From: Draconibacterium mangrovi
GTDB lineage: Bacteria > Bacteroidota > Bacteroidia > Bacteroidales > Prolixibacteraceae
Assembly (NCBI RefSeq): GCF_010586825.1
Contig: NZ_JAAAGB010000001.1
Location: 1,612,001 to 1,676,000 of the forward strand
Length of the DNA stretch: 64,000 nt
Direction: 5' to 3'
The first letter of the stretch is position 1; each line of letters opens with the position of its first letter. This document shows positions 12,808 to 64,000 of the stretch, piece after piece. Position numbers and translations under genes: made by a program. The notes under the pieces were generated by a model. The model had not been told where the DNA came from, ran no database searches, and saw only the letters and a list, made by a program, of their open reading frames with translations.

Positions 12808-13611
12808 TTAAATTGATACTAATTCCGCGGTGGAATTCATTTCCAATTGTGTTAAACCACAATTTATTTCTTCAGCGATGGGAGTGGCATACCTGCCGAT
12901 AAAAAGTACGGCCGGCGAAACGGGCTTGTTTTTGTCAATATCTGATACAATACAAGCAATTGTACTGCTTAAAATGCTTTGTTCTTTTTGCCCAACCTGG
13001 CTCATTACCTGAACCGGCATTTCGGGTTCAATACCGGCTTCCATAATTTTTGCAGTGAGCAATCCAATGTTTTTAAATCCCATATAAATGGTTACGGTAC
13101 CATCGCCTTTTAATACTTCAATCACACTTTCAATATTGCTAAGCGAATTATCGGTGCGATGGCCGGTATAAAAAAGTGCCATCGGGCTTTTATGACGTTC
13201 GGTTATTGGCACTTCCATCAGTCCCGATGCCGCAACTCCGGCGGTTATACCTGGTATCACTTCGTAGTTTAGCCCATGTGTTTTGCAAAAACGAATTTCT
13301 TCGGCACCACGTCCAAATACCATTGGGTCGCCTGCTTTTAAACGAACCACCTTTTTTCCGCGGACAGCCAGTTCAGCCATTTTATGGTGAATGTTATCCT
13401 GCCGTTCGTGCTGGCACTGGCCATCACCCTGGAATTTACCGACATAAATTAGTTCTGCATCGTTTCGGGCAAGTTTTAGCATTTCCTTTCCGTGCAGGGC
13501 ATCGTATAAAACCACATCAGCTTCCGTCAGGCGTTTGTGTGCTTTTACTGTCAGCAACTCCGGATCTCCGGGGCCGGCTCCAACTATTGATATCAGGTGA
13601 TTTTTGCTCAT
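12808..13611 (-). CDS. cobA: Uroporphyrinogen-III C-methyltransferase (siroheme synthesis)
   Basis: 267 residues, the length of a stand-alone SUMT. The family motifs are visible in order: VGAGPGDPELLTVKA, VVLYDAL, RLKAGDPMVFGRGAEE, VIPGITAGVAAS, PITER and LKGDGTVTIYMG. It transfers two methyl groups from S-adenosylmethionine to uroporphyrinogen III, giving precorrin-2, the precursor of siroheme. Siroheme is the catalytic cofactor of NirB encoded two genes upstream, which explains the operon. No precorrin-2 dehydrogenase/ferrochelatase is in the window, so those steps must be encoded elsewhere. Confidence 0.95.
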   Translation of the reverse strand: MSKNHLISIVGAGPGDPELLTVKAHKRLTEADVVLYDALHGKEMLKLARNDAELIYVGKFQGDGQCQHERQDNIHHKMAELAVRGKKVVRLKAGDPMVFGRGAEEIRFCKTHGLNYEVIPGITAGVAASGLMEVPITERHKSPMALFYTGHRTDNSLSNIESVIEVLKGDGTVTIYMGFKNIGLLTAKIMEAGIEPEMPVQVMSQVGQKEQSILSSTIACIVSDIDKNKPVSPAVLFIGRYATPIAEEINCGLTQLEMNSTAELVSI

Positions 13612-13632
13612 AAAAGTTACCTTTCTGATTTA

Positions 13633-13986
13633 CTATTCAATACCGATAAACACGAAGCCGTTTTCTACTTTTACCGGATATGTTTTAAGCTGGTATTGTT
13701 CATCTGTCAGGCATTTGCCATCTTCCAGCGAGAATGTTCGTTTATGAAAAGGACAAGCTACTTTCGGATGCCCTTCCGAATCGCCTGTCAGGCCGCGGGA
13801 TATTGCCATCTCGCCTTTGTGCGGGCACTGGTTTTGTGTGGCGTACCAGCGACCTTCGTTTGTAAAATTGAAAACGGCAATTTGCTCTCCATTAATCAGT
13901 ACAGCTGCGCCTCCGTTTTCAGGGAAATCTTCAACGGCTGCTGCTTTAATCCATTCTTTTACCTCTGTAATAGTTTGTGTTTCCAT
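13633..13986 (-). CDS. nirD: Assimilatory nitrite reductase small subunit, Rieske type
   Basis: 117 residues. The Rieske ligands are intact: C-P-H (QCPHKG, about residue 54) and C-x2-H (ACPFHKRTF, about residue 78). In E. coli NirD these ligands are lost, so this copy probably binds a [2Fe-2S] cluster. It lies 5 bp after nirB and pairs with that subunit in the NAD(P)H-dependent reduction of nitrite to ammonium in the cytoplasm. The surrounding gene order nirB-nirD-cobA is typical for assimilatory systems. Confidence 0.94.
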   Translation of the reverse strand: METQTITEVKEWIKAAAVEDFPENGGAAVLINGEQIAVFNFTNEGRWYATQNQCPHKGEMAISRGLTGDSEGHPKVACPFHKRTFSLEDGKCLTDEQYQLKTYPVKVENGFVFIGIE

Positions 13987-13991
13987 AATTG

Positions 13992-16484
13992 TTAAACTTT
14001 GGCGGGCATTTTCTGGCCGCGCATTGGTACATACTTGATATTTTCGTCGATTTGATCGGAGTTAACAAAGTGGCGGAACTTTTTACGCATTTCCTCATTG
14101 CGAACAACGGTGGTCCACTCGCATTGGTAATGGGAGATGAGCTCCTTCATTTCCTGCTCCAGTTTTTCGCCAATACCCAACGAGTCTTTTACAATTACAT
14201 CTTTCAGGTAGCCAAGGCCACCTTCCAGTTCCGACAGCCATTTGGAGGTACGTGTAAGCGGTCCGGCCGTTTTGATGTAAAACATTAAGAAGCGGTCGAG
14301 ATACCTGACACAAGTTTCCTTATCCAAATCGGAGGCCAGTAAGTCTGCATGACGCGGGTTGGCTCCGCCATTTCCGCAAACAAATAGGTTCCATCCTTTA
14401 TCGGTCGCAATAATTCCGAAATCTTTTCCGCGTGCTTCGGCACATTCGCGAACGCAGCCCGAAACGCCGCCTTTTAATTTGTGGGGAGAACGCAAACCTT
14501 TGTAGCGGTTTTCAACTTCAATGGCAAACGATACCGAGTCGTCCATACCAAAACGACACCAGGTTGATCCCACGCAGCTTTTCACCGTTCGCAGTGCTTT
14601 TCCGTAGGCATGTCCGCTTTCAAAACCTGCATCAATAAGCTCTTCCCAAATGTTTGGTAACTGATCAACACGTGCTCCAAACAGGTCGATTCGCTGGCCT
14701 CCCGTTATTTTGGTGTACAAATCGTATTTTTTTGCTACCTGTCCGATCACGATCAGCTTATCAGGGGTTATTTCCCCACCCGGAATACGCGGGACTACCG
14801 AATAAACACCTCGTTGTTGAATATTGGCTAAAAAGCGGTCGTTGGTGTCCTGAATCGTATCGTGTTTTACAATTACATCGTTCCAAATACTGGCAAGCAG
14901 CGAAGCTGTAAGCGGTTTGCAAAGCTCGCAGCCTGAGCCTTTTCCGTAAGTCGCCAGCAAATCGTTAAATGTCTTTATTTCATTCACTTTAATTAGATCA
15001 TACAGCTCCTGGCGGGTGTAATTAAAATGCTCGCAAATGGTTTTACGAACTTCGCGGCCCTGCGATTTCATGTAATGGGTGAGCAAATCGTCGAGCATAG
15101 GCACACATCCACCACAACCTGTTCCGGCTTTTGTACATTTTTTTATCAGTGGTAAAGCTTCGGCTCCGTCTTGTTCAATGGCCTGCATAATTTGCCCTTT
15201 GCTGATATTTTCGCATGAACAAATACTCGCAGCATCCGGCAGGTCGCCAACACTAATGCCTGCAGCGCCTTCTCCTCCACGGGCTCCCAGGATAAAATCT
15301 TCAGGATTTTCGGGCAGCACCATTTTGTTGTTTACCACCTGCTTCAGCATGTTGTATTCTTCAGCTTCACCAACCAATATGCCTCCAAGCAGGTATTTGC
15401 CATCGGCAGTAAGGTTAAGTCGCTTGTAAATACCGCGTGCTTTATTTTCATACACGATGGTTTTTATGTTCTTATCCTCAACCAGTGCATCGCCAAAACT
15501 GGCCACGTCGGTACCAATCAATTTTAATTTTGAAGACAGATCGAATCCGAGAAATTCTTTTGAATCGCCCTGCAGATTCTGCACAAGCACTTCAGCCATT
15601 TCGTAACAGGGGGCAACCAGGCCCCAAACCATATTGTGGACCACCACGCATTCGCCAATGGCAAAAATGCCCGGGTCGGCAGTTTCCATTTTGCTGTTTA
15701 CAACAATTCCTCCCCGGGGATGAACTTCCAGACCGGCCTGTTTTGCCAGCTCATCGCGTGGCCGGATGCCTGCTGAAATTACCAGTAAATCAGTGTCTAG
15801 TTTGCTGCCATCGTTAAACTCCAGACCTTGAACCGAACCGTTGCCCATGATGCATTTGGTGCTTTTGTTCAGCATCACTTCGAGGTTAAATTCTTCAAGT
15901 TTCGATTTTAGTATTTCAGCGCCTTGCGGATCAAGTTGCCGGGGCATCAGGCGAGGAGCAAACTCAATGATACTTGTTGGAAGCCCGTCATCCAAAACGG
16001 CTTTGGCAGCTTCAAGCCCAAGCAAACCGCCCCCAATTACCGCAGCCTTTTTTGCATTGGGAATGTAGGCTTTGATTTTATCAATATCATCGAATGTCCG
16101 GTATACAAAAACTCCCTTCTTTTCCACACCTTCAATTGGTGGGACAAAGGCTGAAGAGCCTGTTGAGAGTATGAGAATATCGTACGAATAACTTAAGTTT
16201 TTCTCGGAGATTATCGTTTTTGAATTTCGGTCAATCGAAGTAATTCGCTCATGTGTGCGTAGTTCAATGCCGTGTTCTGCGTACCAACCTGCAGGAGCCA
16301 GCAGAAGCTCTTCGGGTACTGTTCCTGTGTAGTAGGAAGTAAGGTGCACACGGTCGTAGGCAGGGTGCGGTTCTTCACCAAAAACAAGCAGTTCATACTC
16401 GTGAACCAATGAAGACGCTACAAATTTCTCGCAGAATTTGTAGCCGGTCATCCCGTTTCCAATTAAAACAATTCTTTTTTTCAT
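13992..16484 (-). CDS. nirB: NAD(P)H nitrite reductase large subunit
   Basis: 830 residues, close to E. coli NirB. Domains in order: FAD-binding (IGNGMTG at the N-terminus), NAD(P)-binding (AVIGGGLLGLEAA near residue 150), a BFD-like [2Fe-2S] domain (CSCENISKGQI...TGCGGC, about 420-470), a second Cys-pair region (GSGCELC), a ferredoxin-like half-domain, and the siroheme/[4Fe-4S] domain with CVGSTWC and GCVRECAE (four cysteine ligands). It reduces nitrite to ammonium with six electrons. It is divergent from the DUF4202 gene, the two starts being 81 bp apart, and leads the nirB-nirD-cobA-FNR operon. Confidence 0.96.
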   Translation of the reverse strand: MKKRIVLIGNGMTGYKFCEKFVASSLVHEYELLVFGEEPHPAYDRVHLTSYYTGTVPEELLLAPAGWYAEHGIELRTHERITSIDRNSKTIISEKNLSYSYDILILSTGSSAFVPPIEGVEKKGVFVYRTFDDIDKIKAYIPNAKKAAVIGGGLLGLEAAKAVLDDGLPTSIIEFAPRLMPRQLDPQGAEILKSKLEEFNLEVMLNKSTKCIMGNGSVQGLEFNDGSKLDTDLLVISAGIRPRDELAKQAGLEVHPRGGIVVNSKMETADPGIFAIGECVVVHNMVWGLVAPCYEMAEVLVQNLQGDSKEFLGFDLSSKLKLIGTDVASFGDALVEDKNIKTIVYENKARGIYKRLNLTADGKYLLGGILVGEAEEYNMLKQVVNNKMVLPENPEDFILGARGGEGAAGISVGDLPDAASICSCENISKGQIMQAIEQDGAEALPLIKKCTKAGTGCGGCVPMLDDLLTHYMKSQGREVRKTICEHFNYTRQELYDLIKVNEIKTFNDLLATYGKGSGCELCKPLTASLLASIWNDVIVKHDTIQDTNDRFLANIQQRGVYSVVPRIPGGEITPDKLIVIGQVAKKYDLYTKITGGQRIDLFGARVDQLPNIWEELIDAGFESGHAYGKALRTVKSCVGSTWCRFGMDDSVSFAIEVENRYKGLRSPHKLKGGVSGCVRECAEARGKDFGIIATDKGWNLFVCGNGGANPRHADLLASDLDKETCVRYLDRFLMFYIKTAGPLTRTSKWLSELEGGLGYLKDVIVKDSLGIGEKLEQEMKELISHYQCEWTTVVRNEEMRKKFRHFVNSDQIDENIKYVPMRGQKMPAKV

Positions 16485-50666: not shown

Positions 50667-52019
50667 CTAAAAAACAAGAACCGCCGAAGTATATTTATCA
50701 GGAACCGAGCTCATTTTCAGGCTGCCACTGTGCAATTGCATGATCTGCCTGGAAATGCTGAGTCCGATTCCCGAACCATTTTCTTTGGTGGTAAAAAACG
50801 GAACAAAGATCTTATCCATCAGCTCATCCGAAATTCCCGGACCATTATCGGTAACCGAAATGATAGGGTGTCCTGCTTCATTAACCGTTGCTATGATCTT
50901 GATTTTTGCATCCTTGTTGCCCTCGTTGGACTGATAGGCATTTTTTACGAGGTTGATCAACACCTGCGAAATCTGCTTTTCATCGGCATGTAACTCCAGT
51001 TCGGGAGGCACAACATCACACGATAACTCAACATGCTCGGCATTTTCGAACGAAGATGATAAAATCCGGATATGGTCGATGAGGTTACTTACCTGAAAGA
51101 CTTTCTTTTCTGGAGCCGGAAGCCGTGTGATCTTCCGGTACGAATCAACAAAATTGATCAGTCCCTTACCTTGTTCGCGAATAACTTCCAGCCCGCGAAT
51201 GGTGTTCTCAATCGTTTTTGTATTAATGTCTTCAGGAGATACCATTGCCCCGTTTTTGTAAAAATATCCGGCCAGACTTTCGGATAAAGAGGTTACCGGA
51301 GTGATTGAGTTCATGATCTCGTGCATCATTACGCGTATCAGTTTGCGCCACGATTCGAGTTCTTTTTCATCCAGTTGATTCTTAATATCATGCACCGAAA
51401 TAAGCATCAACTCATCTTTGTCAGAAATAAATGAGTTCGACTTGATGAGCAACTGAAAGATGCCGCTTTTTAAATGTAAAGTGATCAGTCTTTGTTCTGA
51501 GGGGTGTATTTCTTTTATCGTCTGAAAAAGTTTGGGATCAATTCGCTCCAACTGGTTGATGTGGGTAAGAACATCCACCTCAAAAAGTTGTTTGGCAAGT
51601 TTATTCGAGTGCAGAATAAATCCTTTTCTGTTGAAGGTGAACATGCCGGTGGCAGCGTGTTCCAGCAGGGCCTGAAAATATTGTTCCTGCTTTTGGTTAT
51701 CGAGATAGATTTGCTGAATCTGTGAGTTTACTTTTTGCAGGCTTTGGTTCAGGTCGTTTATAATTTTGTTGTTGACGTTATTCGGGAACCGAAGTGTTGA
51801 ATCTTCGTTTTTTATGGCATCGAAAAAGTAAAATATGCGGCGATTGATTCGGTTCAAAAAATAGATGAGGTTAATAGTAACTCCCAAAATAAACAGGGTA
51901 GGAATGATGGCAAAAATGTACGCTTGCCGGTCAAATATCAGCCAACCTAAAAACAGGGCACCGGCCAGCAAAAGCAGGACTCTGACAAGAATTTTGACGT
52001 AAAGATTTTTACTGATCAT
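50667..52019 (-). CDS. NtrY-like sensor histidine kinase
   Basis: 450 residues. Two membrane segments (about 12-28 and 33-56) are joined by only about four residues, so there is no periplasmic sensor domain. A coiled coil (about 60-115), a PAS-like domain (about 115-215) and the kinase core follow. His233 lies in MHEIMNSITPV, the NtrY/NtrB-type H-box; the ATP-binding domain has LINLVKNAYQS, VTDNGPGIS and GSGIGLSI. It probably senses a membrane or cytoplasmic signal such as envelope stress. Its start overlaps the response regulator's stop by 4 bp. Partner regulator: the sigma-54 activator next to it. Confidence 0.93.
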   Translation of the reverse strand: MISKNLYVKILVRVLLLLAGALFLGWLIFDRQAYIFAIIPTLFILGVTINLIYFLNRINRRIFYFFDAIKNEDSTLRFPNNVNNKIINDLNQSLQKVNSQIQQIYLDNQKQEQYFQALLEHAATGMFTFNRKGFILHSNKLAKQLFEVDVLTHINQLERIDPKLFQTIKEIHPSEQRLITLHLKSGIFQLLIKSNSFISDKDELMLISVHDIKNQLDEKELESWRKLIRVMMHEIMNSITPVTSLSESLAGYFYKNGAMVSPEDINTKTIENTIRGLEVIREQGKGLINFVDSYRKITRLPAPEKKVFQVSNLIDHIRILSSSFENAEHVELSCDVVPPELELHADEKQISQVLINLVKNAYQSNEGNKDAKIKIIATVNEAGHPIISVTDNGPGISDELMDKIFVPFFTTKENGSGIGLSISRQIMQLHSGSLKMSSVPDKYTSAVLVF

Positions 52020-53380
52020 AGCCCGTATTTTTTAATTTTATTGTACAGCGTTTGGCGTGTAATTCCCAGTTTATCGGCGGCCAGGCTCATATTTCCAGCA
52101 TTTTTATCAATTGCTGAAACGATCATACGTTTTTCCATCTCTTCAATGGTTAGTAGTTCATCTTCAAACTTGGATGCAAATACTTGTTTAAAGAAAAAGT
52201 CTTCTGGTTTTAGCACCATCGAATCACTCAGAATTACTGCTTTTTCAATGGTGTGTTGCAGTTCGCGAATGTTGCCGGGCCAGTTGTTTTTCAACAGCTT
52301 TTCCTGGGCTGGCTGATTAATTTTTAATCCATGTTTTTCGTATTTCGAAGCAAACTTCTTCAGGAAAAAATCGGCCAGAACAATAATGTCGTCGCCTCTT
52401 TCGCGCAGCGGAGGAACTTCTATTTGAATGGTGTTAATACGATACAACAAATCTTCGCGAAACAAACCTTCAACAACCATATTCTCCAGTTTTTTATTGG
52501 TGGCACAAACCAGCCGGATATCAACCGGGATGTGTTTATCAGAACCTAAGCGCATAAACTCACGGTTCTGAATAGCTGCAAGTAATTTGGCCTGCAGATG
52601 AAAGGAAAGGTTTCCGATTTCATCGAGAAACAGCGTTCCCTTGTGAGCCGTTTCGAATTTGCCGGCGCGGTTTTCGCGGGCATCAGTAAAAGCACCTTTT
52701 ACATGGCCAAAAAGTTCGCTTTCAAAAAGTGTTTCGCTAATGGCGCCCATGTCAACACTCACCATCACTTCGTTTCGGCGTTGCGAAAGGTGGTGTATTT
52801 CGCGTGCAATCAGTTCTTTTCCGGTTCCGTTTTCGCCGGTAATCAGAATGTTGGCATTGGTTTTTGCCACTTTTCGAACCATGTTCATCACTTGCGTAAG
52901 TTGTGGCGACGAGCCAATAATAAACTTCTGATCGCGGTTGAGTTCCTGTTTTAAACCGGCCTCTTTTTGCCTGAGTTTGCCAACTTCTGTTTTCGAGAAA
53001 TTAAGCTGGACAGCCGCCTTAATCGTTGCCAGCAGTTTGCTGTTGTCCCAGGGTTTTGGCACAAAGTCGGTAGCTCCCTGTTTCAGTGCTTTTACGGCCA
53101 GTTCCACTTCGCTGTAGGCAGTAATCAGCACTACCGAGATATCAGGATAACTCTTTTTTATCTGTTCGAGCCAATATAAACCTTCGTTTCCCGTGTTAAT
53201 TCCGGCTTTAAAATTCATGTCGAGAATGACAACATTGTAGTTGCCTGTTCGCAGCTCATTGGGAATGAGGTTAGGATTGGTAATTCCTTTCACTTCATCA
53301 AATTCCTGCCCCAGCAAAATTTCCAGGGTGCTGATAATGCTTTTGTTATCGTCGACTATTAAGATGTTTCCTTTTGGCAT
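52016..53380 (-). CDS. NtrC-family sigma-54-dependent response regulator
   Basis: 454 residues from ATG 53380; a longer reading to 53458 has no receiver features. Receiver domain (3-120; phospho-acceptor Asp54 in VVILDMN), AAA+ domain (about 150-390; Walker A GENGTGKE, GAFTDA loop, VDIRLVCATN, LRERGDDI) and a Fis-type helix-turn-helix (AADKLGITRQTLYNKIKKYGL). The sigma-54 contact loop reads GAFTDA, a known variant of GAFTGA. A sigma-54 promoter and paired palindromes lie in the divergent region facing the TolC gene, so it likely controls the export operon. The kinase is co-transcribed. Confidence 0.95.
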   Translation of the reverse strand: MPKGNILIVDDNKSIISTLEILLGQEFDEVKGITNPNLIPNELRTGNYNVVILDMNFKAGINTGNEGLYWLEQIKKSYPDISVVLITAYSEVELAVKALKQGATDFVPKPWDNSKLLATIKAAVQLNFSKTEVGKLRQKEAGLKQELNRDQKFIIGSSPQLTQVMNMVRKVAKTNANILITGENGTGKELIAREIHHLSQRRNEVMVSVDMGAISETLFESELFGHVKGAFTDARENRAGKFETAHKGTLFLDEIGNLSFHLQAKLLAAIQNREFMRLGSDKHIPVDIRLVCATNKKLENMVVEGLFREDLLYRINTIQIEVPPLRERGDDIIVLADFFLKKFASKYEKHGLKINQPAQEKLLKNNWPGNIRELQHTIEKAVILSDSMVLKPEDFFFKQVFASKFEDELLTIEEMEKRMIVSAIDKNAGNMSLAADKLGITRQTLYNKIKKYGL

Positions 53381-53481: not shown

Positions 53482-53537
53482 AGGGGTAAAAACTGATGGA
53501 TCAAAATTAGACCAAGCCAAAAACAATTCCAATCAAC

Positions 53538-53576
53538 TGTAAAAATATTTTACAATTTTCTGTAAATAATTTTAAC
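53538..53576. promoter_or_regulatory. Probable upstream activator sites (TGTAAA palindromes)
   Basis: TGTAAAA-ATA-TTTTACA (53538-53554) is a perfect 7-bp inverted repeat. A second, weaker TGTAAATAATTTTAAC starts 23 bp later at 53561. They lie 55-90 bp before the sigma-54 promoter, the usual position of NtrC-type binding sites, and about 160 bp from the regulator's own start codon. Confidence 0.6.
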
Positions 53577-53629
53577 GTTTTCAGAAAAGGGTGATTTGTA
53601 AAGTTCACGAAATCAGCATGAAAGGTTTG

Positions 53630-53645
53630 TGGCATTATAATGGCA
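53630..53645 (+). promoter_or_regulatory. Sigma-54 promoter of the export operon
   Basis: TGGCATTATAATGGCA matches the -24/-12 consensus TGGCACGnnnnTTGCA, with GG and GC exactly 10 bp apart. Transcription would start near 53656, about 16 bp before the TolC ATG. The NtrC-type regulator is encoded divergently. Confidence 0.7.
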
Positions 53646-53671
53646 CGGGGAGTAGAAACAATTTTTACACG

Positions 53672-55024
53672 ATGATAAAGAAACGAATAGTTCTCATTAT
53701 AATTTTTTATTTGATTATAGGAAATACGGTTCAGGCCCAGCAAAAATGGAGCCTGAGCCAATGTATTTCTTATGCCATTGAAAACAACATTAATTTAAAG
53801 GAATACGAGATTCTTGAAAAACTATCGCTGGAAAATGAGCAACAGGCCAAACGCAATATGTTGCCGGGTATTGAAGCTTCAACCAGGGCAGGTTTAAGTT
53901 TCGGTCGTTCGGCGGACCCGAATACCAACGATTATATCAATACAGAGTTTTTTTCCAGCAGCTTCGATTTGGGGTCGACCATCGCTGTTTTTGACGGATT
54001 TCGTATTCAGAACCTGATAAAATATCAGAAATTCAGAAAACAGGCCTCGGAATACAATCGGATAAATGCAACCGACGATTTGGCGTTTAACGTGATGGTG
54101 GCCTTTTTTGATGTGGTTTATTATAAAGGAATGCTCGACATTGCCAACGAGCAGGTAGAAGCCTCAAAGCTAAGTTTGAAAACAACAGAAAAAAAAGTGG
54201 AAGTCGGTTTAAAAGCCAAGACCGACTTGCTGGACATGCGCGCCAATCTGGAGCGCGAAGAACTCAACAAAATTCAGATTGAAAACACCCTGGAAACAGC
54301 GACTTTGAAACTAAAGCAGTTGATGAATCTTATTTCTGCTGAGGAAATGGAACTGGTAGATGAATCGTCGGTGGTTATAAACGAACAAGTGGCTCAACCG
54401 CGACAACTTTTTGAACAGTACACCGGTTGGTCGCCCTATTACCAGTCGATTTATGCGAACGTGAAAGCTACGGAAAAAGGTCTTGCTTTAAGTCGCTCGG
54501 CACTTTATCCGTCGATTTACGCCAGTGGCTCGATCGGTACCGGTTTTTACGAAACCAACACCGATGCCGATGGTAACACCCTGGCATTTAGCGATCAGTG
54601 GAAAAACAACAAAAGCCAGTATCTGGGAGCCTCATTAAGTATTCCGGTTTTTAGCCGGTGGAGCAATCGTTCGGAGGTGAAAAAGGCAAAACTGGAACTG
54701 GAACGTGCCCAAAATAACCTGGACGATGAACGTCAAAAAATGTTTTTCGATATGGTGAATGACCTTACAGAATTGGAAGCTTTATACAAAGAACACAGTC
54801 AGTATGTAAAGCGCACCGAGGTTGATGAGCTGGCTTTTCAGGCTGCTGAAAAGAAATTCGACCAGGGACTGATTGACATTAACGATTACTACATAGCTAA
54901 AAACCGCTTGGCAAATACTCAGAGTCAGGTTTTACGCTCGCGCACGCAGTGGGAGATAAAAATGAAAGTATTGCAGTTTTACCGGGGACAGCGGTTTTGG
55001 GAATTGGACGAAAGTGCTCAGTAA
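53672..55024 (+). CDS. TolC-family outer-membrane export channel
   Basis: 450 residues from ATG 53672, which gives a signal peptide ending VQAQ; a longer reading from 53591 would begin upstream of the sigma-54 promoter. The duplicated OEP pattern is visible: WSLSQCISYAIENNINLKEYEI, then the first coiled coil, DLLDMRANLEREELNKIQIEN, an inner repeat with YQSIYANVKATEKGLALSRSALYPSIYASGSI and a second coil ending NDYYIAKNRLANTQSQVLRSRTQWEIK. It forms the outer-membrane exit of the following adaptor/ABC system. Confidence 0.93.
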   Translation: MIKKRIVLIIIFYLIIGNTVQAQQKWSLSQCISYAIENNINLKEYEILEKLSLENEQQAKRNMLPGIEASTRAGLSFGRSADPNTNDYINTEFFSSSFDLGSTIAVFDGFRIQNLIKYQKFRKQASEYNRINATDDLAFNVMVAFFDVVYYKGMLDIANEQVEASKLSLKTTEKKVEVGLKAKTDLLDMRANLEREELNKIQIENTLETATLKLKQLMNLISAEEMELVDESSVVINEQVAQPRQLFEQYTGWSPYYQSIYANVKATEKGLALSRSALYPSIYASGSIGTGFYETNTDADGNTLAFSDQWKNNKSQYLGASLSIPVFSRWSNRSEVKKAKLELERAQNNLDDERQKMFFDMVNDLTELEALYKEHSQYVKRTEVDELAFQAAEKKFDQGLIDINDYYIAKNRLANTQSQVLRSRTQWEIKMKVLQFYRGQRFWELDESAQ

Positions 55025-55074: not shown

Positions 55075-56331
55075 ATGGGAATGGATAAAAAAATTGAAAA
55101 GAAGAAAGGCTTAAAAGCCAAGCACATTATTTGGATTGTTGGCGGATTGGCGTTTGCCTTTCTGTTGTATAAAGTGGTGTTAGGAAGCAGCGGTTCGGTA
55201 TTTCGTGCCGAGAAAGACAAGCTGACTATCAGCTCCGTAACCGACGGCGAGTTTAACGATTACATTACCGTAATTGGCCAGGTGGAGCCTATTACAACCA
55301 TTTTCCTCGATGTGGAAGAAGGCGGAAAAGTTGAAGAGATTTTTATTGAAGAAGGCGAGATGGTGAAAAAAGGTGACGTTATTCTTCGTTTGAAAAACAA
55401 CGATCTGAATACCACAATTATGAACAGCGAGTCGAATATGGCCTATCATTCCAACGAACTTAGGAATACACAAATTGCCATTGAGCAGCAGCAGATCGGT
55501 AACCAACGTGCCAAGTTGCAGATCGATCTTCAGGTAACACAGGCCGAGCGAAAATACAAACAATATGAGGCCTTGTTTGAGGATGATCTGATTGCCCGCG
55601 AGGACTACTTACAAGCCAAAGAGGACTACGAACTGGCACTTAAAGAAAAGGAGTTGACCTACCTGAAATTTGAACAGGACTCGATTTTCCGTGCCAACCA
55701 AAAGAAAAACATGGACGAGAGTCTGGACAATATGCGTGATAACCTGGCAATGGCGCGCCTGCGTTTAGATAACCTGAATGTAAAAGCTCCTGCCGACGGT
55801 CAGTTGGGCTTATTAAATGCTGAGATCGGGGAGTCAATCGCCCGTGGACAGCGAATAGGTATGGTGAATATTTTAACCGACTTTAAAATCAATGCACTAA
55901 TCGACGAGCATTATATAGACCGCGTGCGTCGTGGCCTGAATTCGTCGTTCGATCGTGGTGGTGAAAACTACAACCTCACTGTTAAAAAGGTATATCCTGA
56001 AGTGCGCGAAGGTCAATTTGAAATCGACATGATCTTCGAAGGGGCAAAACCGGATAACATCCGCACCGGGCAAACTTATCATACAAAATTACAGTTGGGA
56101 CAACCTGAAAAAGCGGTGCTGATTCCCAAAGGCGGTTTCTTTCAAAGTACCGGCGGCCAGTGGGTTTATGTGCTGAACGATAACGGAACGGAAGCCGAAA
56201 AACGCAGCATCCGTATCGGGAAACAAAACCCACAGTATTACGAAGTGCTGGAAGGTTTAACACCGGGCGAGAAAGTGATTACTTCCAGCTACGATTTGTT
56301 TGGGGATAACGATAAGATTGTGTTTAAGTAG
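55075..56331 (+). CDS. Membrane-fusion (HlyD/MacA-type) periplasmic adaptor
   Basis: 418 residues. An N-terminal membrane anchor (about 19-36; IIWIVGGLAFAFLLYKVVL) is followed by the first lipoyl half (VEEGGKVEEIFIEEGEMVKKGDVILRL, about 82-108), a long alpha-hairpin (110-230), the second lipoyl half (LNVKAPADGQLGLLNAEIGESIARGQRIG), and the beta-barrel/membrane-proximal domain to 418 (GLTPGEKVITSSYDLFGD). It bridges TolC to the ABC permeases. It lies 50 bp after the TolC gene. Confidence 0.94.
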   Translation: MGMDKKIEKKKGLKAKHIIWIVGGLAFAFLLYKVVLGSSGSVFRAEKDKLTISSVTDGEFNDYITVIGQVEPITTIFLDVEEGGKVEEIFIEEGEMVKKGDVILRLKNNDLNTTIMNSESNMAYHSNELRNTQIAIEQQQIGNQRAKLQIDLQVTQAERKYKQYEALFEDDLIAREDYLQAKEDYELALKEKELTYLKFEQDSIFRANQKKNMDESLDNMRDNLAMARLRLDNLNVKAPADGQLGLLNAEIGESIARGQRIGMVNILTDFKINALIDEHYIDRVRRGLNSSFDRGGENYNLTVKKVYPEVREGQFEIDMIFEGAKPDNIRTGQTYHTKLQLGQPEKAVLIPKGGFFQSTGGQWVYVLNDNGTEAEKRSIRIGKQNPQYYEVLEGLTPGEKVITSSYDLFGDNDKIVFK

Positions 56332-56412: not shown

Positions 56413-56781
56413 ATGGCACATTTTAGGTTTATGGATTTAGACATCTGGAAAGAAGCTATTGTTTTAAATGACGAGCTTTACGATTTGGCAGAAATCCTGG
56501 AGCAGGCAAAACATTTTCGAGCAGCCGAACAATTAAGGGCAGCATCATTAAGTATTTCTAATAACATTGCTGAAGGTGCCGGTTCTTTTTCTGACAAAGA
56601 TTTTGCTAATTTTCTAAAGTTTGCCCGACGTTCAGTTTTTGAAACAGTTAATATTACTTATGTCACTTATCGTAGAAAATTTATTACCGAAGATGAGCTC
56701 AATAAAAAGCTTGATGACATGGATAAACTAAGTAGGAAAATAACAAATTTCAGAAAGAAGATTCTTAGCGCAGAGCGATAA
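56413..56781 (+). CDS. Four-helix-bundle protein of the 23S rRNA intervening-sequence family
   Basis: 122 residues with FRFMDLDIWKEAI at the start, AAEQLRAASLSISNNIAEGAG in the middle and NFLKFARRSVFETVN; these are the hallmarks of the bacterial four-helix-bundle (S23/IVP) family. It forms a pentameric helix bundle; the role is unknown. It sits inside the export operon between adaptor and ATPase genes, flanked by degenerate spacer repeats, so it may be a passenger rather than part of transport. Confidence 0.9.
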   Translation: MAHFRFMDLDIWKEAIVLNDELYDLAEILEQAKHFRAAEQLRAASLSISNNIAEGAGSFSDKDFANFLKFARRSVFETVNITYVTYRRKFITEDELNKKLDDMDKLSRKITNFRKKILSAER

Positions 56782-56922: not shown

Positions 56923-57621
56923 ATGATAAAGACAGAAAATCTAACGAAAGTATTTCGCACCGAAGAGGTGGAAACCAGTGCATTGAATGAGGTAAGTTTA
57001 CATGTAAAAAAAGGTGAATTTGTGGCCATCATGGGACCTTCAGGTTGTGGAAAATCAACCTTGATGAATATCATCGGGTTACTGGATAATCCTACCGGCG
57101 GTGAATATTATTTTGATGGTGCCGAGGTTGGTCAACTAAAAGAACGCAACCGCACCATGTTGCGCAAGGGAAACATCGGTTTTGTGTTTCAGAGCTTTAA
57201 CCTGATCGATGAACTGAACGTTTACGAAAATGTGGAACTTCCGCTAATCTACCTCAAACTGAAAGCCCGTGAGCGCAAAGAAATGGTAGAGAAAGTACTG
57301 GAGCGAATGAAAATTGCGCACCGCGCCAAACACTTTCCGCAACAACTTTCGGGTGGACAACAGCAGCGTGTGGCCATTGCGCGTGCCGTAGTTGCCAATC
57401 CGAAGCTGATTCTTGCCGATGAGCCTACCGGTAACCTCGACTCGAAAAACGGTTTGGAAGTAATGAACCTGCTTACCGAACTCAACAGAGAAGGAACCAC
57501 TATTGTAATGGTAACGCACTCGCTACACGACTCTGAATTTGCTCACCGCGTTGTTAACCTGTTCGACGGTATGATCATTACCGAAGAAGTGAAAAAAGAA
57601 ATGGGAGAGATTCTGCTATAA
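56923..57621 (+). CDS. ABC transporter ATP-binding protein, LolD/MacB type
   Basis: 232 residues from ATG 56923; the longer reading from 56851 begins within a spacer repeat. Walker [10 protein letters not shown], the signature LSGGQQQR, Walker B LILADEP with TGNLDSK, and the H-loop MVTHS; the LDNPTGG and [12 protein letters not shown] regions are typical of the MacB/LolD branch. It powers the FtsX-like permeases that follow. It lies about 140 bp after the four-helix-bundle gene. Confidence 0.95.
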
Positions 57622-57708: not shown

Positions 57709-60057
57709 ATGAAAAATTTACGATTTATATTCAGAATGTTTCGGCGAAATCCCTTGCTGGTTTTTGTAAACCTGCCCGGATTGGCCATCGGATTAAGTGC
57801 AGTATTGCTGTTGTCGGTTTACCTGAAACACGAGCTAAGTTACGACCAGCATTTTCAAACTAAAAACAATGTTCTTCGTCTTTACAATGCAGTTGCCGAA
57901 AATGGAAACACCACTAATTACGCCATTTGTTTGCGCAAAGCTTACACCGAAATTCCATCGCGGGTTCCAGAAATAAGATCGGCCACTCAGATTTATAATG
58001 GCTGGAACACTACAGCAGAATTTGAGAAGCAAAAATTCCCAAACGTGCATATGTTGTTTGCCGACAAAGATTTCTTTGATGTGTTCGGACTAAAGTTGAT
58101 TCAGGGAAACACCGATGATGCTTTGGTGGGTGAAAACAACGTGGTTATTACGCGGTCAACGGCACTGAAGGTATTTAATACCGAAGACTGTGTTGGCAAG
58201 GTTTTGAATGTTTCGGAAGAGCCGGCCACGGTAACAGGAGTGATAAATGATTTACCCAATAACACGCACTTTAATTTCGATTTGCTGTTATCGATGCAGA
58301 CTGTTCATCCTGAAAACTGGGGAGGGCTGGAGTTTTACACTTATTTCAGAATTGATGAAAATGCCGATTTGGCTTCAGTTGGAGAAAAAATAGCCGCTGC
58401 AAACAACAAGCTTATGAAACCGTGGGGTGAGCCATTCAACCTAACTGTGGAAACAGGGACCGAACTTCTGGCCGATTTACATCTACATACCGTTGTTGAT
58501 TTTGATCTTTCGCCAAAAGCCAATTTAACGCACGTGTTTATTATTGCCGGCATTGCCTTTTTGGTGCTGCTTATTGCCATGGTAAATTACATAAATCTGT
58601 ATGTTTTGCATGGCGAAAAGCGGATTGCCGAAATTGCTTCAAGAAAATCGTTGGGCGCAACGCAAAGCACGTTGAGTCGTTTGTTCTTTACCGAAACATC
58701 GGTGATCAGCCTTTTGTCGTTTGTGCTGGCGTTGGGACTAACAGCACTTGTTCAGCCTGCGTTTGCCGGTTTAATGAAAAGCCAGATTGAGCTGTCGGAC
58801 ATGTTCTCCTTATCCGGCATTTTACTGGTTTTGGGAATTCTTGCCATTCTAATATTGGTTTCAGGTGCTTATCCAAGTTATTATTTGTCGAAGTTAAACC
58901 TGGTAAATGCGCTAAAAGGAAAGACCTCTAAAGTCAAACGAAAAAGCACCTTATCGCGCATTGCCGTTATTTCGCAGTTTTCCATATCGGTTTTTCTTAT
59001 TAGTGCGCTGGTAATTGTTTTTGCCCAGGTGAACTATTTAAAGGAAGTGCCACTTGGTTTTAATCCCGAAAACGTAATCGGTATTACCAACCTGAATAAC
59101 GAGGTGCGAAGAAGCGCGTCGTCTATCGCTGATGAATTGTCGCAACTGGCATTTGTTGAAGATGTGGCGTCTTCCGATCATGCAATGGGACAAGGCTCAA
59201 GCGGACAGGGAATAAAGAAGTACGGAGCTCCCGGAAATTTTAAAAGTATTGATGAATACCGTGTACATCCCGGATTTGCAAAAACCATGCAGATGGAATT
59301 GGTCGACGGTCGTTATTTTAATAATTCGGAAGCAGATAGAAAGGCAGTAATTCTTAATGAAGCGGCGGCAAAAATGCTGGGATCCGATGTAAAAGTGGGC
59401 AGCCTGCTCGATATGTTTGATGAACCTTTAACGGTAATCGCCATTGCTAAAGATTTTTACTACATCGATCATCCGGGGGCACCAATTGGGCCACTAGTTC
59501 TTACCAATTACCGAGGCAATGTAAACAATATGTATGTGCGAACAAAAGCAGGAGCCACACCGGCGCAACTGGCACAAATTGATGAGGTGATTAAAAGTTA
59601 TTCGCCGGAATTGATCATCAGTAAGTTTCAGTTAACCGATGTTTACGCCAATAAATACACCAACGAAGAGCGTATGATAAAACTGGTTACTACCGGTGCC
59701 GGACTGGCGATTATCATCAGTTTTATTGGTTTAATGGCGCTGTCGGTGTTGAATGTAAACCGACGACGAAAAGAGATCGGAATCCGAAAAGTGATTGGCA
59801 GTACCGAAACACAGGTTGTTCGCGAGTTGCTTAAAGAAACGTTTGTCCTGGTGCTTATTGCTATTGTTATCGCTTTTGTAGGCAGCTATTTTACCATGCA
59901 TCAATGGTTACAACATTTTGCAAACCGCGTTTCCATCAGTCCTGTATATTTTCTGGTTAGCGCTGCTTTTGCTCTGTTTATAGCGTTTATGGCAGTTAGT
60001 TGGCAAAGCTGGCGAGCAGCTACGCGAAATCCTGTTGAGGCACTCAGATATGAATAA
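57709..60057 (+). CDS. MacB/FtsX-like ABC permease 1
   Basis: 782 residues with an N-terminal anchor, a large periplasmic MacB-type domain (about 40-270), then three membrane segments, a second periplasmic segment (about 415-660), and the FtsX-like C-terminal segments ending SWRAATRNPVEALRYE. This duplicated two-periplasmic-domain layout is common in Bacteroidota. It belongs with the preceding ATPase. Its C-terminus is identical in the last 19 residues to that of the next permease, showing recent duplication or gene conversion. Confidence 0.93.
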   Translation: MKNLRFIFRMFRRNPLLVFVNLPGLAIGLSAVLLLSVYLKHELSYDQHFQTKNNVLRLYNAVAENGNTTNYAICLRKAYTEIPSRVPEIRSATQIYNGWNTTAEFEKQKFPNVHMLFADKDFFDVFGLKLIQGNTDDALVGENNVVITRSTALKVFNTEDCVGKVLNVSEEPATVTGVINDLPNNTHFNFDLLLSMQTVHPENWGGLEFYTYFRIDENADLASVGEKIAAANNKLMKPWGEPFNLTVETGTELLADLHLHTVVDFDLSPKANLTHVFIIAGIAFLVLLIAMVNYINLYVLHGEKRIAEIASRKSLGATQSTLSRLFFTETSVISLLSFVLALGLTALVQPAFAGLMKSQIELSDMFSLSGILLVLGILAILILVSGAYPSYYLSKLNLVNALKGKTSKVKRKSTLSRIAVISQFSISVFLISALVIVFAQVNYLKEVPLGFNPENVIGITNLNNEVRRSASSIADELSQLAFVEDVASSDHAMGQGSSGQGIKKYGAPGNFKSIDEYRVHPGFAKTMQMELVDGRYFNNSEADRKAVILNEAAAKMLGSDVKVGSLLDMFDEPLTVIAIAKDFYYIDHPGAPIGPLVLTNYRGNVNNMYVRTKAGATPAQLAQIDEVIKSYSPELIISKFQLTDVYANKYTNEERMIKLVTTGAGLAIIISFIGLMALSVLNVNRRRKEIGIRKVIGSTETQVVRELLKETFVLVLIAIVIAFVGSYFTMHQWLQHFANRVSISPVYFLVSAAFALFIAFMAVSWQSWRAATRNPVEALRYE

Positions 60058-60099: not shown

Positions 60100-62424
60100 A
60101 TGAAGCATTATTTCTTAACGATTTGGAGTTCGATACGAAAAGCAAAACAAACCAACTTTTTTAATTTAATAGGCTTGTCCGTTTCGTTTGCTGCATTTGT
60201 ATTGTTGTCGATTTATTTGTGGAATGAATTTACTTTCGACCAATACAATAATAATTACAAGCAAGTATACATGCTTGAAATGAATTCGGATGAAAACGGA
60301 GAAAATGAATCGAGTTATTTTCTGCCAAATCCGATGGCCGATTATTTTGCGGAGAACATTCCGGAATTGTCTACGCTTTGTTCGTTTGCCTGGGGAGCCA
60401 ATACTTATTCTTTGCAAAAGGGTGGAGAAGCAAGCGTGAATCTTGCAACCAGGGCAGTTGATTCCACTTTTGCCCGGATGTTCGATTTGCGAATGAAATT
60501 CGGAGACCTGAATACCTTGGCACAAAATGATGGTATTATTCTTTCTGAAACAGGAGCTAAAAGGTTATTCGGGAATGAAAATCCGGTTGGAAAAACCATC
60601 TATGCCAATTTTGAAACGCCTTATATAATTGAAGGAGTATTTTTTGATCTTCCACAAAATAGTTCGTATCACGAATACGATGCTTTTTGCTCTTTCCCAA
60701 CCGCTTCCTGGGCAACCAATTGGTCGGAATACAGTTTTAATCACTATTACCAATTACCCAAAAATGCTTCCGTATCCGAGGTGATATTGAAAATGAATGA
60801 ATCGCAAGGCGTAAAAGATTGGAAAGAAAATTCGACTGAGGATTTTTCCTTTAGTTTGTTACCAATAAAAGAAAAACATTTTAATAAACAATTGGGTAGT
60901 GGGAACCTGCTTTTTACCCGCTCGCTGGTTGTAGTTGCTGTATTACTGCTATTTATGGCCTTTGTTAACTACCTGAATTTTGCCATTGCCAATGCTCCAA
61001 AACAACGTAAAGCAATCAACGTTCGTCAGGTTTTGGGAGAAACGAAAAAGCATTTATTGTTCTTATCCGTTTCAGAGTCGGCATTTATAATTACCCTGGC
61101 GTTTATCGGAAGTATCGTGCTGAGTTCAGTGGTGACTTATTTCTGGCCGGATATTTTTTCGTACGAATTTCATCTGAAAAATTACGTTTGGATTTTTGCC
61201 TTATGCTGGTTATTGGTCGTTCTTTTAGGAGCTCTAATTGCGGTGATACCGTCCCGAATGAATGGAAATATGGCCCCTGCAAGGGCTTTAAGCGGAAATG
61301 TGCCGCAAGGTCAGCAACGTAATTTCACCGGAAAGGTTTTAACGGTTCTGCAATTCGGTATTTCAATTTTTCTGATTATTGGTGTGTTGTTTATTGAAAA
61401 GCAAGTTCGTTTTTTCAAAAACTACGACCTGGGCTTTGATAAAGAAAACATTGTGGTCGTTGATATTCCTCAGTCGATACAAGAACACGAAGATGCGTTT
61501 GTAAGTGAATTAGTAAAGAATGGTAATATTACTGATTATGCTTTTTCTCAATTTGTACCCGGTGGAGTTGGAATGGGCTGGGGGCGCGACATAGATGGTA
61601 AGCGTGTAAGTTTTAAGTGCTGGCCGGTTGACGAGCGCTATATGAATTTTATGGGATTTGAGATTGTAGATGGCAGGGCATTTTCAGAGAATCTTAAGTC
61701 GGACGAAAATAATTTCATAATGAATGAGACTGCCCTAAAAGATTTTGGCTGGGAAACCGAATATTTGGGGAAGCAGATTCCGGGATTTGGCTTTAGCGGT
61801 ACTTTAATTGGTGTTGTAAAAGACATGAAATATGCATCGTTAAGAGAAGAAGTTACACCCCTGGCATTTTGGCTCACTGAAACACGCCACAATAAACTCA
61901 ATGTAAAAATATCAGGGCAAAATGTCTCTAATACAATTGCGCATATTAATGACGTTTATAGCCAATTCGAGAAAAAACGTACGTTTAATTATCGTTTCCT
62001 TGATGAACAGCTAAACAGCATGTACAAAGCTGAGGAGAAACAAGCACAACTCATTTCTATATTTTGTATTATATCAATCATCATTTCGGTTATTGGAGTT
62101 TTAGGATTGGCAATTTTATTGTCAGAATACAGAATAAAAGAAATTGGAATACGAAAAGTGAATGGAGCCAATATCGGCGAAATTATAACGCTGCTAAATA
62201 GTGGTTTTATTAAATCGATTTTAATTGCCTCAATTATTGCTTGCCCACTTGGTTACTACGCCATGAATAAATGGCTCGAAAATTTCGCCTACAAAACTTC
62301 GTTGAGCTGGTGGATATTCGCTTTGGCAGGGTTACTGGCTTTGGGAATTGCCTTGTTAACGGTTAGTTGGCAAAGTTGGCGAGCAGCCACAAGGAACCCT
62401 GTTGAGGCACTCAGGTATGAGTAA
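60100..62424 (+). CDS. MacB/FtsX-like ABC permease 2
   Basis: 774 residues, a clear paralogue of the gene before it (LWNEFTFDQYN vs. LKHELSYDQHF; RKAINVRQVLGETKKHLL; EIGIRKVNGANIGEI). N-terminal membrane anchor, periplasmic domain, central membrane block, second periplasmic domain, terminal FtsX-like helices and the identical C-terminal ending. It starts 42 bp after the first permease. Whether it pairs with the first as a heterodimer or handles another substrate is open. Confidence 0.93.
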   Translation: MKHYFLTIWSSIRKAKQTNFFNLIGLSVSFAAFVLLSIYLWNEFTFDQYNNNYKQVYMLEMNSDENGENESSYFLPNPMADYFAENIPELSTLCSFAWGANTYSLQKGGEASVNLATRAVDSTFARMFDLRMKFGDLNTLAQNDGIILSETGAKRLFGNENPVGKTIYANFETPYIIEGVFFDLPQNSSYHEYDAFCSFPTASWATNWSEYSFNHYYQLPKNASVSEVILKMNESQGVKDWKENSTEDFSFSLLPIKEKHFNKQLGSGNLLFTRSLVVVAVLLLFMAFVNYLNFAIANAPKQRKAINVRQVLGETKKHLLFLSVSESAFIITLAFIGSIVLSSVVTYFWPDIFSYEFHLKNYVWIFALCWLLVVLLGALIAVIPSRMNGNMAPARALSGNVPQGQQRNFTGKVLTVLQFGISIFLIIGVLFIEKQVRFFKNYDLGFDKENIVVVDIPQSIQEHEDAFVSELVKNGNITDYAFSQFVPGGVGMGWGRDIDGKRVSFKCWPVDERYMNFMGFEIVDGRAFSENLKSDENNFIMNETALKDFGWETEYLGKQIPGFGFSGTLIGVVKDMKYASLREEVTPLAFWLTETRHNKLNVKISGQNVSNTIAHINDVYSQFEKKRTFNYRFLDEQLNSMYKAEEKQAQLISIFCIISIIISVIGVLGLAILLSEYRIKEIGIRKVNGANIGEIITLLNSGFIKSILIASIIACPLGYYAMNKWLENFAYKTSLSWWIFALAGLLALGIALLTVSWQSWRAATRNPVEALRYE

Positions 62425-62472
62425 ATCAATTTTGAACATTTGGATGAAGATGTAAATAGAAACCGGAAAACT

Positions 62473-64000
62473 ATGTCAAAACTGAAAATACTATTTAGGA
62501 ACTTACTAAGACGAAAACTGTCAACAACCTTTACTATCGCTAGTTTTATTATCGCCTTTTGCTGTGCCGTTTTGGTCTATCTATACGCAACCGATGAGTT
62601 TGCATTCGATAAGTACAACAGCAAATTTGGGCAAATTTACCGGTTAAATGTTAAATCTACTGACGGTACAGGAACGGTTAACTGTTCTTTCCCGGGAGTT
62701 TTTAGCGACAACCTTGGTCCGGTAAGCGGAATCGGGAATTATGCTCGTTTGCAGATTGGATCCGACGAAAGGTATATCTCTGTCAACAACGAACCGTTCG
62801 TTGAAACAGACATTTTGTACGGCGATCCTGATGTCCTGAAAATTTTCGACTTTCAGTTTTTGGCAGGAAATCCGGATAATGCGCTGGAAGCTCCTTTAAA
62901 CATGATTGTCACCGAGTCGATGGCCAAAAAATATTTCGGTAATGAAAATGCGAAGGGCAAATTCATTCACCTAGACAACCATGATTTTACTATAACCGGG
63001 ATTGTAAAAGATTTACCGCCTCAATCGCATTTTAAAATGAACATGTTAGTGTCAGTTTCAAGCTATAAGGTATTGAACAGCAACTTGCTCACGAAATGGT
63101 ACATGACTGCATTTAACTACTATTTTATGATTCCTGATAACAGTAATATCGGTGGAATCGAAAAGCAATTAGCAGACATTTTTGCCACAGGCCATGAAAT
63201 TGCTAACAATGACCGGAAATTTGAAATGTACCTCGAACCGCTGGGTGACATTCATTTACAATCGGTGGGAACGCGCTGGGATAATGCAATAAAAGGGGAT
63301 TATAAAGTTGTTATCGGATTAATAGTTATAGCTTTTTTGATTTTGGGAATAGCCATTACCAACTATATCAATAATCTTACAGCTACATACCGAAAGAAAA
63401 TAAAGGAAACGGGGATCCGAAAAATTAACGGGGCATCGCGTTTTAAGCTAGCACTTGAGCAGGTAATGGAAACATTCATCCTGCTGGCAGTATCGCTGCT
63501 CGGGGCAATTGTATTGACAATGTTTGTCCTACCTTATATTAATGCATTAGTCGGCAAATCCATTTCTTTTAATTTTTCTTTGGTTGTTTTCCTTGCAATA
63601 CTGCTTCTGGCAACCATTCTGTTTTCTACAGTTTATCCTATTTTGTTCTTTAATTCGTTTAACCCATCGGATGCCATTAAAACCCAAGGAGGAATTTTAA
63701 AACGGAAGAATAAAAAACAGCAACAACGAATCCGTGGTTCGTTTGTCATTTTTCAGTTAGGCATTGCTTCTGTATTAATTGTTGCAAGTATTGTAATCAA
63801 CAATCAGTTGCAACTTATGCTTAATGCCAAAATTGGTTTCGACAAAGAAAATGTACTTATTATAACCAACCCGTATAGTGAAAATATGCAACAACGGTAT
63901 GTGCGGTTTAAATCGGAGGTTTCCAAAATACCATTGGTTAACACAATTGGAGTAACGCAAAATGCTCCTGCAGGTTACGTCAATAATTATTCGCCCGGAA
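62473..64000 (+). CDS. MacB/FtsX-like ABC permease 3 (partial at right edge)
   Basis: The frame is open from ATG 62473 to the last base (509 residues visible). It begins MSKLKILFRNLLRRKLSTTF with a membrane anchor, then YATDEFAFDKYNSKFGQIYRLN, a periplasmic domain, the FtsX block RKKIKETGIRKINGASRFKLALEQVMETFILLAVSLLG, and the start of the second half (SFVIFQLGIASVLIVASIV). It is a third paralogue in tandem; more copies may lie beyond the edge. It is 48 bp after permease 2. Confidence 0.92.
   Translation, partial: MSKLKILFRNLLRRKLSTTFTIASFIIAFCCAVLVYLYATDEFAFDKYNSKFGQIYRLNVKSTDGTGTVNCSFPGVFSDNLGPVSGIGNYARLQIGSDERYISVNNEPFVETDILYGDPDVLKIFDFQFLAGNPDNALEAPLNMIVTESMAKKYFGNENAKGKFIHLDNHDFTITGIVKDLPPQSHFKMNMLVSVSSYKVLNSNLLTKWYMTAFNYYFMIPDNSNIGGIEKQLADIFATGHEIANNDRKFEMYLEPLGDIHLQSVGTRWDNAIKGDYKVVIGLIVIAFLILGIAITNYINNLTATYRKKIKETGIRKINGASRFKLALEQVMETFILLAVSLLGAIVLTMFVLPYINALVGKSISFNFSLVVFLAILLLATILFSTVYPILFFNSFNPSDAIKTQGGILKRKNKKQQQRIRGSFVIFQLGIASVLIVASIVINNQLQLMLNAKIGFDKENVLIITNPYSENMQQRYVRFKSEVSKIPLVNTIGVTQNAPAGYVNNYSPG

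Follow-up and report, generated by a model that had tools for sequence, protein, structure and literature searches.

A predicted sigma-54 promoter with helically phased putative activator dyads between an NtrC-type regulator gene and a multi-permease exporter in Draconibacterium mangrovi

RESULTS

Gene content and promoter elements of the locus

The window, i.e. the whole 64,000-nucleotide stretch of Draconibacterium mangrovi DNA analysed here, carries a two-component gene pair and, divergent from it, a run of exporter genes that extends past the window end. The features of this locus are the following:

50667–52019, minus strand: sensor histidine kinase with two predicted membrane helices, a loop of about 5 residues, a weak PAS match and HATPase_c (Pfam HATPase_c, E 2e-21; PAS, E 3.5e-4, under the curated cut-off; hydropathy)
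52016–53380, minus strand: NtrC-type response regulator with receiver, sigma-54 AAA+ domain with GAFTDA loop and Fis-type HTH (Pfam Response_reg, Sigma54_activat, HTH_8; the top solved-structure matches are NtrC-family regulators)
53502–53532, minus strand: TTG-N20-TAATTTTG, an element of the -33/-7 type and probable housekeeping promoter for the regulator gene (ATCAAAATTA identical in L182; TAnnTTTG enrichment)
53538–53554, no strand: putative activator dyad 1, TGTAAAAATATTTTACA (TGTAAAA-ATA-TTTTACA; sequence read, dyads kept in relatives)
53561–53577, no strand: putative activator dyad 2, imperfect, TGTAAATAATTTTAACG (locus L191 has a comparable imperfect copy at the equivalent place)
53630–53645, plus strand: sigma-54 -24/-12 element TGGCATTATAATGGCA (TGGCAT-N5-TGGCA; sequence read, score, relatives)
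53672–55024, plus strand: TolC-family outer-membrane channel (Pfam OEP, E 1.4e-55)
55075–56331, plus strand: periplasmic adaptor, HlyD/MacA/DarC-like (Pfam HlyD_3; NCBIfam RND_mfp over its cut-off; DarC, E 4e-52, under its cut-off)
56413–56781, plus strand: four-helix bundle protein of the 23S rRNA intervening-sequence protein family (Pfam 23S_rRNA_IVP, E 1.8e-26)
56923–57621, plus strand: ABC ATPase, MacB/LolD/DarD-like (Pfam ABC_tran, E 8.9e-37; DarD, E 2.5e-84, under its cut-off)
57709–60057, plus strand: duplicated permease 1 of the MacB/FtsX type (Pfam MacB_PCD and FtsX, two stretches each)
60100–62424, plus strand: MacB/FtsX-type permease 2 (Pfam FtsX, two stretches; MacB_PCD, one)
62440–64000, plus strand: permease 3, extending past the window end (four further permeases in L003, 2950–12730)

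The kinase gene lies downstream of the regulator gene on the minus strand. In the opposite direction, the TolC gene is followed by the genes for the adaptor, the four-helix bundle protein, the ABC ATPase and then seven MacB/FtsX-type permeases in a row, of which the final four lie outside the window; from this order we infer a single transcript. According to Pfam, an OEP channel, an adaptor, MacB_PCD/FtsX permeases and an ABC ATPase are all encoded, with ATPase and permease as separate genes. Gene order and domains thus agree with the preliminary description of this DNA, which had placed the promoter between a divergent NtrC-type regulator and a TolC/adaptor/ABC operon. RpoN is present in the genome as a single copy (one Sigma54_DBD match, E 9.8e-52).

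Permeases 3 to 7 are 79–96% identical in their last 95 residues and 25–33% identical elsewhere (gapped alignments; window 60100–64000 and L003 441–12730). The same C-terminal tail is found in permease 2 at 73–80% and in permease 1 at 51–54%, and it looks like a cassette that was spread, or kept similar, by recombination on otherwise different permeases. A gene related to the four-helix bundle gene, which lies between adaptor and ATPase (56413–56781), occurs at the equivalent place in L182, L191, L066 and L086, and because of this shared position in four relatives it may be a standing operon member in part of the family. After the seventh permease, L003 carries a metallophosphoesterase-like gene (12907–13944, named from its translation by reading) and, about 390 bp past it, a further permease-like gene from position 14332.

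In the -24/-12 element TGGCATTATAATGGCA, GG at 53631–53632 and GC at 53643–53644 form a GG-N10-GC core, and the TolC ATG at 53672 lies 27 bp beyond the last base; the GG/GC spacing and the distance to TolC read as previously described. We scored such elements with weights that we set from the sigma-54 consensus, a score of at least 12 being taken as good; the window element reaches 13.1 out of 14.5, with G and not T at base 13. When the 292-bp intergenic stretch was dinucleotide-shuffled 1000 times, 3 of the shuffles held an element scoring as well. Transcription is predicted to start near 53656. Upstream, both TGTAAAA-ATA-TTTTACA and the second copy reported 23 bp further on are present, the latter as an imperfect dyad. 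Each dyad is 17 bp long, their starts are 23 bp apart, and the -24/-12 element begins 69 bp after the first base of dyad 2. The dyad centres lie about 110 and about 87 bp upstream of the predicted start, in line with the expectation that NtrC-like activators act from sites about 100 bp upstream; the corresponding distance bands are conserved (see below). By itself, the window palindrome is weak evidence, as 206 of 1000 shuffled versions of the intergenic stretch contain some 17-bp palindrome in which 7 or all 8 of the arm pairs match, and single TGTAAA-N5-TTTACA sites (at most one mismatch) are not enriched genome-wide, with 58 occurrences against 72 of the reversed pattern. The -24/-12 element and the dyads exceed chance because they are conserved in relatives.

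Conservation of the promoter and phasing of the dyads

Are these elements kept in related genomes? We compared two sets of loci. At E ≤ 1e-110, 83 of 149 genomes of the order, the own genome included, encode a close relative of the regulator; the best 100 of 117 relative loci together with the window make up the 101 loci of set 1, 53 of which have a recognised divergent exporter gene starting no more than 600 bp away. The first exporter gene met in these 53 encodes an adaptor (18), a permease (15), TolC (11) or an ATPase (9). Set 2 consists of loci from named genomes (the best 80 of 563 confirmed matches), for which the score and dyad rules were fixed beforehand, and includes Flagellimonas, Cellulophaga, Aquimarina, Maribacter, Echinicola, Algoriphagus, Ohtaekwangia, Parabacteroides, Phocaeicola and Bacteroides; 44 loci were left after removal of 4 exact duplicates of set 1 and of 32 loci at which we recognised no divergent exporter gene up to 600 bp away. 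Among the matches listed, the closest named regulators come from a Prolixibacteraceae metagenome-assembled genome (84%) and from Sunxiuqinia (72%). Two named loci with divergent exporters, L200 and L225, are titled Chlorobiota and Acidobacteria; both are from metagenome-assembled genomes and represent either misnamed bins or spread outside Bacteroidota.

In the exporter direction, a -24/-12 score of at least 12 was found at 46 of 53 loci in set 1 and at 39 of 44 in set 2, each against a shuffle mean of 1.8; these are counts of loci and not of independent events, because closely related loci are still present in each set and across the two. The preliminary description had made its proposal hinge on conservation of the motif in related genomes, and conserved it is. 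Indeed, when the window is aligned with its nearest relatives L182 and L191, conserved islands mark the dyads as well as both -24/-12 boxes, single bases aside, and dyad 2 of L191 still has the imperfect TTTTAACG arm.

Exact TGT-N11-ACA dyads are present in 36 of the 53 intergenic stretches of set 1; one shuffled set has them in 6 of 53. Single dyads lose their value as a test once a mismatch is tolerated (50 of 53 real versus 44 of 53 shuffled). Tandem dyads with at most two mismatches in total occur at offsets of 21, 22 and 23 bp in 16, 16 and 22 of the 53 loci, respectively, while shuffles yield a mean of 1.2 per offset and 6 at the largest; other offsets are also above shuffles, with 2–12 of 53 loci. 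We defined a clean pair as one with at most one mismatch in 12 positions and chose promoter and pair independently of each other. The distance from the start of dyad 2 to the TGG of the -24 box then falls into two classes for the 27 of 53 and 26 of 44 loci that have a clean pair: 69–72 bp (17 loci in set 1, 14 in set 2) and 80–83 bp in set 1 (10) or 79–82 bp in set 2 (12). At these 27 and 26 loci no clean pair lies at any other distance, be it between or outside both classes. When all exact dyads within 140 bp upstream of the -24 box are considered at the 93 loci with a -24/-12 score of at least 11, 107 of 112 lie in four bands, at 69–72, 79–83, 91–95 and 101–106 bp. The bands, like the two distance classes, are spaced by about one helical turn (~11 bp). 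On a quick regulator tree, calculated with the HTH excluded and with poor support for 17 of 59 inner branches, the distance classes swap at least five times among 51 loci.

Loci without a clean pair (26 of 53 and 18 of 44) show poor pairs at scattered distances, or none. Their recognition helix is other than RQTLYN in 40 of 44 cases, RQTLYN in 2 and unassignable in 2, and because of these 40 such loci may use other half-sites. At 80 of all 177 loci we recognised no divergent exporter gene up to 600 bp away, and the phased layout occurs in just 2 of 48 and 1 of 32 of those. L191 belongs to the 32 uncounted loci because a small ORF puts its tolC 893 bp away; it has the phased layout, and the remaining 31 do not. 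This ORF (L191 5382–5789, minus strand), which by eye has a signal-peptide-like N-terminus, sits between the sigma-54 promoter and tolC, a place where the window has none.

Promoter of the regulator gene

The regulator gene is preceded by TTG-N20-TAATTTTG, a probable housekeeping promoter by the -33/-7 consensus. The -7 box is contained in ATCAAAATTA, which is conserved in the L182/L191 alignment and identical in L182. Towards the regulator, TAnnTTTG occurs at 23 of 53 and 22 of 44 loci versus 10.6 and 10.1 in shuffles, and a -24/-12 score of at least 12 is found at 0 of 53 and 3 of 44 loci, which is chance level (1.8 in the shuffles of either set). The regulator gene thus has no conserved sigma-54 promoter at this threshold, and the closed two-component/sigma-54 circuit of the preliminary description is not supported: because TAnnTTTG is enriched and good -24/-12 elements are not, the circuit is probably not closed by sigma-54 at regulator transcription. 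As dyad 1 starts 6 bp from the -33 box, binding to the dyad might repress the regulator gene.

Regulator, half-sites and kinase

The regulator comprises a receiver, a Sigma54_activat and a Fis-type HTH domain (Pfam). Its sigma-54 contact loop was compared over 101 regulators including that of the window and reads GAFTDA in 86, GAYTDA in 2, GAFTHA in 1 and GAFTGA in 1, with no pattern match in 11.

For regulators with the recognition helix RQTLYN, half-site position 6 is A in 119 of 130 half-sites, and where Arg replaces the Asn it is C in 36 of 46; with other helix residues the position is mixed (A 20, G 9, C 2, T 1; n = 32). The residue after Tyr (Asn or Arg) matches base 6 of the half-site (A or C) at all 42 scorable loci, out of 62 with an exact dyad. 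As independent proof this covariation was rejected: it looks decisive by a rank test, yet each trait changes once on the tree, and because of this single change the match is consistent with, and not independent proof of, binding. The local regulator would fit as the dyad binder.

In the own genome, the dyad-pair pattern (at most 3 mismatches, both strands) gives 37 matches versus 35 for the control, and two patterns of dyad plus TGGCA give 9 versus 6 and 7 versus 3. Within these two patterns, no second place has a good -24/-12 element at a phased distance, the next best two scoring 11.8 and 11.5 at 86–87 bp from a single dyad. None of the three other exact TGTAAA-N5-TTTACA sites in this genome has a -24/-12 element reaching 11, and the regulator paralogues (L005–L012, about 1.5 kb on either side) have neither an exporter gene nor a dyad pair with fewer than 2 mismatches. 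A single phased place in the own genome fits a dedicated local switch.

By simple hydropathy, the kinase has two helices joined by a loop of 0–19 residues at 84 of the 97 divergent-exporter loci; the other 13 show one helix (6), none (1), no reading frame (4) or a truncated regulator (2). A short-loop kinase is also found at 63 of the 80 loci that lack a recognised divergent exporter gene, so that this topology says nothing on the partner. Most kinases of the family seem to be without a periplasmic sensor domain. Intramembrane-sensing histidine kinases have two membrane helices with a linker of fewer than about 25 residues, and the window kinase, with a loop of about 5 residues by simple hydropathy, lies within this limit.

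DISCUSSION

Based on the sequence elements with their conservation and fixed phasing, on the gene order and on the domain make-up of the encoded proteins, we propose, with a probability of roughly 0.86, that 53538–53645 is an enhancer-dependent sigma-54 promoter at which the NtrC-type regulator binds both dyads and the exporter is the target. The neighbouring kinase would phosphorylate the regulator (52016–53380), which in this form would occupy both 17-bp dyads, side by side on one DNA face, and assemble its AAA+ ring there. By looping of the DNA, this ring could contact the -24/-12 element and open the promoter together with the sigma-54 polymerase, such that transcription from the predicted start would depend on RpoN and the exporter would stay off until a kinase signal arrives. 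Regulator and kinase, in turn, would be made from a separate, oppositely directed promoter of the housekeeping type.

Could the exporter instead be transcribed chiefly from a housekeeping promoter, the -24/-12 element being minor or silent? TAnnTTTG does occur towards the exporter at 12 of 53 and 6 of 44 loci, but shuffles give as many (10.6 and 10.1, respectively) and no such box faces the exporter in the window, so that we consider this very unlikely. A coincidence, i.e. an AT-rich intergenic stretch that happens to hold a palindrome and a TGGCA pair, could account for the palindrome alone, given its frequency in shuffles, but hardly for conservation and phasing in two locus sets, and is extremely unlikely.

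The dyads might also be bound by another protein, Crp/Fnr-like or a global regulator, that modulates the sigma-54 promoter while the local regulator binds elsewhere. The dyad motif is indeed simple and AT-rich, and similar single TGTAAA-N5-TTTACA sites exist elsewhere in the genome, at chance level; however, the pairs adjoin the divergent regulator in Bacteroidia, Flavobacteriia and Cytophagia, hold their phasing to the -24 box, change their letters with the regulator branch and, for the patterns searched, have one phased place only in the own genome, all of which makes a foreign binder quite unlikely. A loop in which the regulator drives its own gene too, via sigma-54, could draw on the position of the dyads between both genes and on the reverse-direction score, which reaches 11 at 14 of 44 loci in set 2 versus 7.6 in shuffles. 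Yet at 12 the reverse strand is at chance in both sets, in set 1 also at 11 (8 of 53 versus 7.8), the best reverse score in the window is 10.6, and TTG-N20-TAATTTTG is present; we give such a loop very little credence. We therefore retain the enhancer-dependent sigma-54 promoter directed at the exporter as the preferred reading.

How does this compare with what has been reported? In the available part of PMC12316311 (2025), which presents itself as first evidence, COG0577 permeases are enriched among the predicted sigma-54 targets in Bacteroidia. That prediction shares with our locus the permease class (COG0577, FtsX/MacB), the sigma factor and the organism class; it is, as far as the available part goes, a COG-level count of predicted promoters without an adjacent regulator, dyads or phasing. 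The assertion that the arrangement is rarely described holds in part: the layout is common in the phylum and sigma-54 control of the permease class has been predicted (the same available part), but it has hardly been studied there. In the partly accessible literature searched, with subscription journals mostly outside, we found neither the dyad pair nor its phasing described. A candidate precedent, the TolC mutants of Flavobacterium johnsoniae (PMC10197871), was set aside as not relevant, as the pump in the part available adjoins a TetR-type regulator. The kind of switch is thus known, though hardly studied in this phylum; the cis-code, the helical phasing and the seemingly sensor-less kinases are new.

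The cis-code is testable and consists of two TGT-N11-ACA dyads, the second starting 69–72 or 79–83 bp before TGGCAY-N5-TTGNW. In Bacteroidia, Flavobacteriia and Cytophagia it links exporter operons with a common kinase–regulator pair, and the phylum is one whose sigma-54 targets have received little study. Moreover, at least five changes of the spacing class with no clean pair in between constitute a natural experiment on enhancer facing near a sigma-54 promoter.

Like enhancer-binding regulators of the NtrC/ZraR type, the system combines receiver, AAA+ and Fis-type HTH with dyads about 100 bp before the start and a -24/-12 core. In size (17 bp) and in their outer TG...CA, the dyads resemble the E. 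coli NtrC site. Unlike NtrC/ZraR-type systems, the dyads are 21–23 bp apart, the target is an exporter, GAFTDA replaces GAFTGA, and the window regulator stays under the cut-off of the 25 NCBIfam models listed (of 87 matched), including NtrC, ZraR and AtoC. GAFTGA is described as strongly conserved in PMC3162934, in whose available text names beginning with Bacteroid- or Flavobacteri- are absent, and the part of PMC4641369 at hand lists GAFTDA among the variants expected to stay active. The prevalence of GAFTDA may go with a difference in region I of the Bacteroidota RpoN.

The exporter, in turn, shares adaptor, ATPase and FtsX/MacB_PCD permease with MacA-MacB-TolC and DarBCD, and DarC and DarD are the top NCBIfam models of the adaptor and the ATPase, respectively. 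It is unlike these exporters in falling under the Dar equivalog cut-offs, in an ATPase apart from the permeases and in having a single ATPase gene followed by seven permease genes in a row.

A further comparison is offered by BceRS-BceAB of Firmicutes. BceR is an OmpR-type regulator; a regulator of this type is absent at our locus, where the regulator is NtrC-type according to Pfam. Bce modules, as treated in the available part of PMC7828314, have kinases without an extracytoplasmic sensor domain that are governed by their ABC transporter, and there, as seemingly here, a sensor-less kinase adjoins an ABC transporter whose permeases have large extracytoplasmic parts. By analogy, sensing through the transporter is possible. 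We speculate, as a tentative and rather doubtful proposal, on a widespread Bacteroidota counterpart of Bce, in which flux through or occupancy of the FtsX/MacB permeases would inform the sensor-less kinase, the NtrC-type activator and sigma-54 would switch on the exporter from an enhancer locked to one helical face, and the seven permeases would be interchangeable inputs to one kinase or one ATPase. Unlike BceRS-BceAB, the system described here pairs its kinase with a Gram-negative exporter that includes TolC and an adaptor, and with an NtrC-type regulator and sigma-54.
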